64,000 bases of DNA from Porphyromonas asaccharolytica DSM 20707 (GTDB lineage Bacteria > Bacteroidota > Bacteroidia > Bacteroidales > Porphyromonadaceae), in the NCBI RefSeq assembly GCF_000212375.1, contig NC_015501.1:124001-188000 (forward strand), in the 5' to 3' direction. Position 1 is the stretch's first letter; each line of letters begins with the position of its first letter. Position numbers and translations under genes: made by a program. Positions 48,312-50,283 of this stretch are shown piece by piece. The notes below the pieces were generated by a model. It ran no database searches and was not told the DNA's origin. It saw only the letters and a program-made list of their open reading frames with translations.

Positions 48312-48462
48312 GGTTCCTCCGTTGGAACCGAAAAGTTCCCACGCTGGAACTAAAGAGTTCTTCCCTTGGAACTAAAGAGTTCCTCTCTTGGAACTTTTTA
48401 GTTCCAAGAGGAGAACAATTTCTGGAACTCGTATCTATATCAAGTTCAGCACGATACGAACG
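48312..48462 (+). repeat. GGAACT/AGTTCC palindrome array, copy B
   Basis: TTGGAACCGAAAAGTTCC, CTGGAACTAAAGAGTTC, TTGGAACTAAAGAGTTCC and TTGGAACTTTTTAGTTCC at about 20-25 bp intervals, then the same tail as copy A (GGAACTCGTATCTATATC ... CAGCACGATACGAA). More units than copy A. Confidence 0.82.
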
Positions 48463-48475
48463 TACCACAGACGAG

Positions 48476-48590
48476 TAACGATTTGCTTTCTAAGTTCATA
48501 CGCAAGTAAAAAGCGAAGTTTTTTCTCGTTTCGCAAGCTCGGTCGACTTCTCTTCGGGTGAACCGCTCGGCGGGGTGGAAGCTCCCACCG
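48476..48590 (+). repeat. 115-bp inverted repeat, left arm
   Basis: It starts TAACGATTTGCTTTCTAAGT, contains GAAGTTTTTTCTCGTTTCGC, and ends GGGGTGGAAGCTCCCACCG. Near-identical in inverse at 50169-50283 across the IS110 element. Confidence 0.88.
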
Positions 48591-48830
48591 TAGGGGCGGA
48601 CCTGTGTGTCCGCCCGTCCTCACCTGAGCACAGCCTATTCTGCGGGCGGACACGTAGGTCCGCCCCTACACAAGCTACGTCAGCACGACAATTCCATTCA
48701 TCAAACGCTGTAACCTCGATTTGTAGGGACGCACGGAGAGCGTCTAGTGGGAGGGCGTCCGTTGTAGAACGAAAGTTACAGCATCCTTTCGCTGGTTTGG
48801 AGACGGATGCACGACCGTGCGTCCCTACTT
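48591..48830. repeat. GTGCGTCC/GTCCGCCC-type intergenic repeats
   Basis: GTAGGGGCGGACCTGTGTGT ... CACGTAGGTCCGCCCCTACA (48591-48670) is a long inverted repeat; TTGTAGGGACGCACGGAGAG ... GCGTCCGTTGTAGAAC and GACCGTGCGTCCCTAC follow (48720-48827). Same family as 18990 and 36954. Confidence 0.75.
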
Positions 48831-48889
48831 TAAGTTTGCAGAGTGAAAAGGAATCGACCCGAGAATAGGTCAGTTGAACGGGTTGTTCT

Positions 48890-48897
48890 TACCTTTG
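48890..48897 (+). promoter_or_regulatory. -7 box TACCTTTG before the IS110 leader
   Basis: It matches TAnnTTTG 188 bp ahead of the transposase start, so a long leader RNA is made. Confidence 0.6.
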
Positions 48898-49084
48898 TTG
48901 TAGTAAGGTAAGGACAGCAACCAGAAGGTAATCTATCGTCCCTACGAGGCTTCGAGCCTAAGACTTGTTAGAGACCCTCTGGAGTTCAGCTACTCGAGAC
49001 TTATTAGAAAGGAAGGCTCAGAGCCTAATTAAAGTAATAGCCTAATGTAGCCTAGCTGCCTTATCAAGATTCAAGTACAAAGTT
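48898..49084 (+). ncRNA. Candidate IS110 bridge RNA region
   Basis: The 187-nt non-coding leader between promoter and transposase has the size of known IS110 bridge RNAs. It holds two hairpins with the same stem, AGGCT-TCG-AGCCT (48947-48959) and AGGCT-CAG-AGCCT (49014-49026), and two near-identical single-strand candidates, AGACTTGTTAGAGA (48961-48974) and AGACTTATTAGAAA (48997-49010), arranged mirror-fashion between them. IS110-group elements carry the bridge RNA upstream of the transposase. Loop specificities cannot be assigned without element ends. Confidence 0.5.
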
Positions 49085-50122
49085 ATGAAATACTACTTTA
49101 TTGGCATCGACGTTTCCAAAGAAAAATTGGACGCCACCCTGATTCACTACGAATCCGAATCAGACAGCGAGCAACAGCTCGCCTACACCACTGTAGAAAA
49201 CAACCCTAAGGGATTCAAGAGCCTTGTCTCTTGGAGCAAGAAGAACGCAGGTCGAGGAGTCAAGACCGACGCCATGCTCTTCTGCTGTGAGACTACAGGA
49301 GGATACGATCGCGCACTCTGTGACTGGCTCTATGGCAACGGGCTAAACATCTGGCGCGAGAGCGCCCTGCAGATCAAGCGTAGCATGGGTCTGCGCAAAG
49401 GCAAGGACGATAAAGCTGACTCGGAGATGATCGCTTACTACGCCTTACGCTTCCGCTCCAAAGCCACTCTCTATAAACCTCTGGACGGGAACATGCGCAA
49501 CCTACGCGACCTTTTCCTCTACCGGCAGTCACTAGTTGCCGATAGGCAGGCTAAGCTAGTTAGTGCCAAGGAAAAACGGCACATCTCTAGCAAGTCTAAA
49601 GCCGACAGCTTCATCTACCGAGATGCCCAAAAGGCTATCGACCTCTTGACCAAAAGCATCAAAGAGTGCGAGCGCCGAATGCTTGAGATCATCAAGGCAG
49701 ACGAGGAGATGTACCGCAACTACCTGCACCTCATTTCCTGCAAAGGAGTGGGTCTCGTCACCTCCGTCATGCTGATCATCTACACCGACAACTTCAAGAC
49801 TTGGAGTGCCAAGAAGATGGCTAGCTACTGCGGTATAGCGCCCTTCTACGAGAGCTCTGGGAGCTCAGTCTTTCACAAAGCCAACACAGGAGGCTACAGT
49901 AACCGACGGCTAAAAGGAATCTTGACCCAAGCAGCCCGAAGTGCCATAACGCATAACCCAACATTAAGACAATACTACCTACGCATGAAAGCCCAAGGCA
50001 AGCCCTACGGGGTTATCCTCAACAATGTCAACAACAAGCTCGTACACATTCTCTTCTCTTTGGTTCTGCACGACTGTGACTTCGAGCTAGACCACGAGAC
50101 GAAGAGAGCTGCTCGAGCCTAG
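49085..50122 (+). CDS. IS110-family transposase (bridge-RNA-guided recombinase type)
   Basis: 345 residues. The N-terminal RuvC-like DEDD domain has GIDVSK (Asp 9), CCETTGGYD (Glu 69), and KGKDDKADSEMIAYYA (Asp pair about 108-112). The C-terminal Tnp20 domain has LISCKGVGLVTSVMLI, the YCGIAPFYESSGSS block (catalytic Ser among 257-261) and an ending LNNVNNKLVHILFSL. All expected catalytic residues are present, so the enzyme may be active. The upstream non-coding part is longer than the downstream one, matching the IS110 and not the IS1111 subgroup. Element ends cannot be fixed because IS110 leaves no target duplication. Confidence 0.93.
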   Translation: MKYYFIGIDVSKEKLDATLIHYESESDSEQQLAYTTVENNPKGFKSLVSWSKKNAGRGVKTDAMLFCCETTGGYDRALCDWLYGNGLNIWRESALQIKRSMGLRKGKDDKADSEMIAYYALRFRSKATLYKPLDGNMRNLRDLFLYRQSLVADRQAKLVSAKEKRHISSKSKADSFIYRDAQKAIDLLTKSIKECERRMLEIIKADEEMYRNYLHLISCKGVGLVTSVMLIIYTDNFKTWSAKKMASYCGIAPFYESSGSSVFHKANTGGYSNRRLKGILTQAARSAITHNPTLRQYYLRMKAQGKPYGVILNNVNNKLVHILFSLVLHDCDFELDHETKRAARA

Positions 50123-50168
50123 TCCAAGGGAAGGAAACTCTTCGCTCGGGGAGCGCCTCCGCGGCAAG

Positions 50169-50283
50169 GGGTGGGAGCCCCCACCCCGCCGAGCGGTTCC
50201 CCGCCGAGCAGTCGACCGAGCTCGCGAAACGAGAAAAAACTTCGCATTTTACTTGCATATGAACTTAGAAAGCAAGTCGCTAC
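50169..50283 (-). repeat. 115-bp inverted repeat, right arm
   Basis: Reverse complement of 48476-48590 with about a dozen differences and small indels (GGTGGGAGCC ... CGAACTT-type core GCGAAACGAGAAAAAACTTC). A further perfect 20-bp inverse match is AGTGGGAGGGCGTCCGTTGT (48746-48765) with 50299-50318. The gap 50123-50168 and 50319-50386 shows nothing else. Confidence 0.88.

Follow-up and report, generated by a model that had tools for sequence, protein, structure and literature searches.

An intact IS110-group insertion sequence with a predicted bridge RNA encoded in its left end

The element and its copies

The window (the whole stretch of 64,000 nucleotides that was analysed) belongs to a host genome, G000, of 2,186,370 bp in one contig. 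It carries an IS110-group element and, adjoining it, a much shorter element that shares its right end:

48485-48722, minus strand: RE-only MITE-like element of 238 bp; its right end is the RE of the IS and its left junction reads CGTCCCTAC^AAATCG
48820-48828, plus strand: left target half CGTCCCTAC, core AC at 48827-48828 (from the flanks of full copies)
48829-50273, plus strand: IS110-group element, 1445 bp (from copies with unrelated flanks and the joint guide search)
48829-49084, plus strand: LE, 256 nt
49085-50122, plus strand: intact IS110 recombinase, 345 aa (D9, E69, D109, D112, S258)
50123-50273, plus strand: RE, 151 nt
50265-50272, plus strand: left donor half, the RE end TTAGAAAG, a terminus conserved in all full copies
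50273-50278, plus strand: core C and right target half CAAGTC, directly 3' of the conserved right end

The recombinase scored 151.5 bits against NF033542, 'IS110 family RNA-guided transposase' (cut-off 140), and the presence of both PF01548 and PF02371 above their cut-offs places it in the IS110 family. It matched the IS621 structure 8wt6 with E = 2.8e-17, and its DEDD and serine residues (D9, E69, D109, D112 and S258) are aligned with those of IS621, in agreement with the original prediction that the transposase keeps its catalytic residues.

The same prediction spoke of an apparently intact element and advised collecting further copies. Both points were borne out: the reading frame is complete, and an alignment of 10 full copies with unrelated flanks from two genomes (3 in the host genome and 7 in a related genome, G025, all with intact frames) defined the ends. 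The left boundary falls directly after CGTCCCTAC, or in one copy after CGCCCCTAC, and its counterpart on the right lies at ...GAACTTAGAAAG^C; the joint guide search described below puts the cores at 48828 and 50273, matching these ends. As is usual in the IS110 group, the two ends of the element lack long terminal inverted repeats according to the repeat scan, and LE is longer than RE (256 versus 151 nt) and holds all the guides. The copy in the window and the one at 1841 kb of the host genome hardly differ in sequence, so the movement is recent. A search of genome and viral collections for related loci returned no relatives.

G025 additionally carries one deleted copy, and the copies of a further genome, G024, sit at contig ends. 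At L055 1489-1515 (G025:C1:2189 kb), an IS copy with an internal deletion has a left flank, CTCCTAGAAAGC, that resembles the donor (right end) and not the target repeat. To the left of the window element, positions 48313-48400 contain four 22-nt imperfect tandem repeats (GTTCC...GGAACT).

The predicted bridge RNA

The LE region upstream of the recombinase gene has the following features, all on the plus strand:

48890-48897: Bacteroidota-type -7 motif TACCTTTG (TAnnTTTG), the probable bridge RNA promoter, kept in all IS copies of three genomes
48903-49075: predicted bridge RNA of about 170-180 nt, with approximate ends (start placed from the -7 motif; fold, alignment and guides)
48907-48918: closing helix, 5' arm GGTAAGG-a-CAGC, pairing with 49055-49065 (MFE and alignment fold)
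48921-48928: target-binding-loop stem, 5' arm CCAGAAGG, pairing with 48975-48982
48935-48945: left target guide (LTG) ATCGTCCCTAC
48947-48959: hairpin AGGCT-tcg-AGCCT between LTG and RTG (MFE fold and relatives test)
48962-48967: right target guide (RTG) GACTTG
48975-48982: target-binding-loop stem, 3' arm CCCTCTGG (alignment fold and relatives test)
48989-48993: donor-binding-loop stem, 5' arm GCTAC, pairing with 49047-49051 (MFE and alignment fold)
49004-49011: left donor guide (LDG) TTAGAAAG
49014-49026: hairpin AGGCT-cag-AGCCT between LDG and RDG (MFE fold and relatives test)
49029-49036: right donor guide (RDG) TTAAAG plus UA, that is TTAAAGTA
49047-49051: donor-binding-loop stem, 3' arm GTAGC (MFE and alignment fold)
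49055-49065: closing helix, 3' arm GCTGCCTTATC (MFE and alignment fold)

The original prediction had given a 187-nt leader its own TAnnTTTG promoter. The motif is indeed present just 5' of this interval, and a relative with 33% identity (L086) has TATCTTTG as its -7 motif; upstream of the window motif, however, no -33 box is evident at Bacteroides-type spacing, and so it is the -7 motif by itself that points to a promoter. Both hairpins with the stem AGGCT/AGCCT were found as described, as were the two near-identical 14-nt segments, AGACTTGTTAGAGA (48961-48974) and AGACTTATTAGAAA (48997-49010), which agree at 12 of 14 positions.

The single-sequence fold of the leader is no better than that of shuffled sequences (z = -1.3), therefore further evidence was needed, and Rfam contains no family matching the leader. 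Covariance folding, suggested in the original prediction, gave a divided answer. Among close homologues there are no compensatory pair changes, since the sequences are too similar; in five distant relatives, a target-loop stem of unrelated sequence (GACTGGC/GCCAGTC, GATTAGGTG/CACCTAATC, AAACAGCAGGGG/CCCCTGCTGTTT and others) occurs at the matching position, equalled in only 0-2 of 500 shuffles each (39 of 500 for the window's own stem). In all six elements tested, a small hairpin stands between the target guides, and most of them have a donor hairpin. The target-loop stem and the inner hairpins are structures kept with different sequence. The outer stem of the donor loop was not significant by itself in the shuffle test. 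The closing helix is kept with few changes in 12 aligned sequences; as a universal feature it was rejected, because comparably long helices, significant there, were found in L083 and L086 only. The evidence that goes beyond chance lies in the guide-to-DNA matches and in the homologues.

Guide segments and their DNA matches

The LTG is identical over 9 nt to the left flank CGTCCCTAC (48820-48828), and in G024 the copy on contig C197, inserted inside a gene, has a flank that reads ATCGTCCCTAC, a match to the full 11-nt guide. At 6 of 6 positions the RTG pairs with the right flank, CAAGTC (50273-50278), and it is followed by UU (core and handshake positions); at most copies its pairing is imperfect (4-5 of 6). 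The LDG is identical to the RE end at 50265-50272, and the RDG with its UA is the reverse complement of TACTTTAA, which spans the left junction. The guides follow the order LTG, RTG, LDG, RDG, and all four meet at one core C per junction.

A single-junction shuffle test with an overlap penalty proved too loose (5-23% of shuffles matched) and was superseded by a blind joint search, which looked for four guides in bridge-RNA order with one shared core nucleotide and was not supplied with positions. For the window it gave a total of 31 with all guides meeting at C, and 1 of 400 dinucleotide shuffles did as well. Three relatives whose recombinases are 33-38% identical to that of the window gave totals of 35 (L083, 0 of 400 shuffles), 31 (L086, 0 of 400) and 33 (L087, 1 of 400), each with C as the core base, and the guide positions in these RNAs and in that of the window differ by no more than about a dozen bases. 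L085 and L096 are further cases (0 of 100 shuffles each), so that the layout, with different target guides, recurs in relatives at 31-38% protein identity. Three further relatives yielded solutions of poor specificity or unusual placement, with shuffles nearly as good in some of them; no solution was obtained in 8 other relatives tested, nor, at six-base stringency, a four-guide solution for the copy at 1288 kb.

In IS110 bridge RNAs, donor guides are similar and target guides variable (PMC11208160). The same pattern is seen here: donor motifs at the corresponding place of the relatives' RNAs (ATAGAATTC, ATAGAAAT, ATAGATTG and TTAGAAT) are alike and resemble TTAGAAAG of the window, whereas the target guides differ. 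The handshake-type pairing of guide-adjacent bases with the recombined junction, which has been described for IS621 (PMC11208158), is found in L083, L086 and L087, in which the RTG reaches donor-side bases of the junction. In the window it is found in the donor loop: the RDG with its UA pairs with the target-side TAC.

The leader thus combines two loops with paired guides, which fit both strands of target and donor about a common core. The original prediction took it for a bridge RNA, and the loop bases, which match the left end, the right end and both target halves, support this assignment. It had also named the lack of a conserved fold, or of loop matches to the ends and target, as grounds for abandoning the idea; a stem kept in distant relatives and loop matches to both were found.

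Target site and core

Insertion is site-specific and directed at repeats. All 10 full-length copies in the two genomes follow CGYCCCTAC (CGTCCCTAC or CGCCCCTAC), a repeat end that is over-represented roughly sevenfold, CGTCCCTAC occurring 155 times in the genome versus 21 times for the reversed control string. A palindromic repeat unit at 48723-48828 has it facing outwards at either end, with the MITE-like element at one and the IS at the other.

The core is AC in the target and GC in the donor, therefore position 8 is mismatched and position 9 fixed; C occupies position 9 in the window and in L083, L085, L086 and L087. A CT core like that of IS621, placed at CC-CT-AC, was rejected, as CTAC is absent from every right junction. 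Likewise, targeting of an R2|R1 composite junction was discarded: the left flanks vary, and there is no shared core that would fit.

Comparison with known systems

The best reference is IS621 of E. coli with its 177-nt bridge RNA (PMC11208160, PMC11208158). The two systems share the IS110-group layout with a long LE that contains the RNA, a target loop preceding the donor loop, the guide order LTG, RTG, LDG, RDG with guides that include the core, insertion adjoining palindromic repeat ends, and a DEDD and serine recombinase. Unlike the CT core with a near-invariant T of IS621 and its close orthologues, the core here is AC (target) or GC (donor) with an invariant C at position 9; the mismatched position 8 is one at which IS621 tolerates changes. 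To our knowledge, a CT core is a feature of IS621-like members and is not stated to be definitive for the whole family. Furthermore, whereas IS621 rebuilds a sigma-70 promoter across the circle junction, the window element has its -7 promoter motif inside LE, and its RNA is closed by a 5'-3' helix, with a separate 5' stem-loop not clearly present.

The recombinase of ISCro4 (PDB 9t56) is a homologue of distant sequence (E = 1.8e-15). Members of the IS1111 group also combine a DEDD recombinase with a bridge RNA, but they carry the RNA in a long RE and have subterminal inverted repeats of 7-17 bp, in contrast to the guides in LE seen here. TIGR-Tas (NF052498) matched weakly, at 19.4 bits against a cut-off of 100 bits, in the C-terminal part that the two have in common, and no TIGR array was seen. 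The system is a new member of the known IS110 bridge RNA family.

Proposed mechanism and alternative explanations

By analogy with IS621, the bridge RNA would bind a recombinase tetramer, with one loop holding the genomic site CGTCCCTAC|AARNNN and the other the junction of the excised circle, TTAGAAAGC|TTTAAG. As in the IS621 structures (PMC11208158), the top strands would be cut after the core C (position 9) and exchanged with the aid of bases adjoining the RTG and RDG, and the circle would be inserted at the end of a palindromic repeat.

We estimate at about 0.95 the probability that 48829-50273 is an intact IS110-group insertion sequence with a bridge RNA encoded in its left end that is working or was so recently. 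Read from the DNA, its architecture, guide matches, choice of target, intact recombinase and recent copies all speak for this, and because four guide segments match the element's own ends and the insertion site, we regard it as a true RNA-guided jumping gene, belonging to a type discovered only recently. Less favourably, the element could have decayed to a remnant with a non-functional bridge RNA, with which the imperfect RTG pairing at several copies would agree; this is unlikely given that all guides and catalytic residues are retained and that near-identical copies with intact frames exist (3 in G000 and 7 in G025).

Two other explanations are still less probable. Lying directly upstream of the CDS and folding weakly as a single sequence, the leader might be only a structured 5' UTR regulating the recombinase, with guide matches that are coincidental or stem from short shared repeats. 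However, four matches converging on one nucleotide, their recurrence at matching RNA positions in unrelated sequences of relatives, and target guides that vary with the target while donor guides stay alike already make this very unlikely. An equally slim chance is given to a true right end further upstream, near 50169, with the terminal 118 bp belonging to a pre-existing composite repeat that is the target, not to the IS. Such an arrangement would account for the last 118 bp being present on their own, without an IS, at about 27 places, where they immediately follow a CCCCTAC repeat end, but not for their presence in all IS copies despite differing left flanks, the match of their last bases to the LDG, or the sequence beyond them, which fits the natural continuation of CGTCCCTAC repeats.

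Orphan bridge RNAs and RE-only elements

The less ordinary parts of the system, and those most worth following, are bridge RNAs found beside rRNA operons without a recombinase and short elements that have only the right end of the IS. The orphan RNAs are:

G000:C1:750580-750870, minus strand: L004
G024:C31: L051
G025:C1:1501926-1502211: L056

In these loci the -7 motif is lost and the CDS is reduced to a remnant, and all guides are kept; the right target guides (AUUUG, GAUCUG) match CTAC-AAATCG and CTAC-AGATCG repeats. Between the three species, identity amounts to 91-94% in the RNA body and 64-68% in the 5' flank. For the 3' flank it is 47-53% when G024 is one of the pair, and 88% for G000 against G025. 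Since the body is more conserved than most of its flanks, selection on the orphan RNA is likely, though not proven for every pair.

The terminal 118 bp of the IS are shared by short elements, about 27 of them in G000 and about 8 in G025, which end in the same sequence and lack a recombinase, a bridge RNA and a recognisable right donor half. They share the target of the IS, being inserted at CGTCCCTAC repeats, and at the left junction they have the whole target site, CGTCCCTAC followed by AGATCG, AAATCG or similar. Among the roughly 22 left junctions examined, 10 are exact, 2 lie directly after another right end and the others have one mismatch. We propose that recombination between a target site and a nearby right end, carried out by the recombinase, may mobilise the intervening DNA. 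A further idea, which we consider rather doubtful, is that the bridge RNA has escaped the transposon, the orphan acting in trans with the IS recombinase and the RE-only elements moving with a target site of the genome in place of a left end.

Our literature search, itself incomplete, found no description of the orphan RNA or the RE-only elements, and a lead for an IS110 MITE was rejected as it concerns an IS982 derivative. If active in trans, either would show how bridge RNAs get shared or domesticated. The element itself offers an anatomised Bacteroidales bridge RNA system with a non-CT core, an internal promoter motif and ready natural targets, besides relatives whose target guides are different. 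Systems of this kind broaden the choice of programmable recombinases. In the right flank of L039 and at L019, MITE-like elements lie immediately next to another copy, IS or MITE, at its right end and represent tandem insertions.
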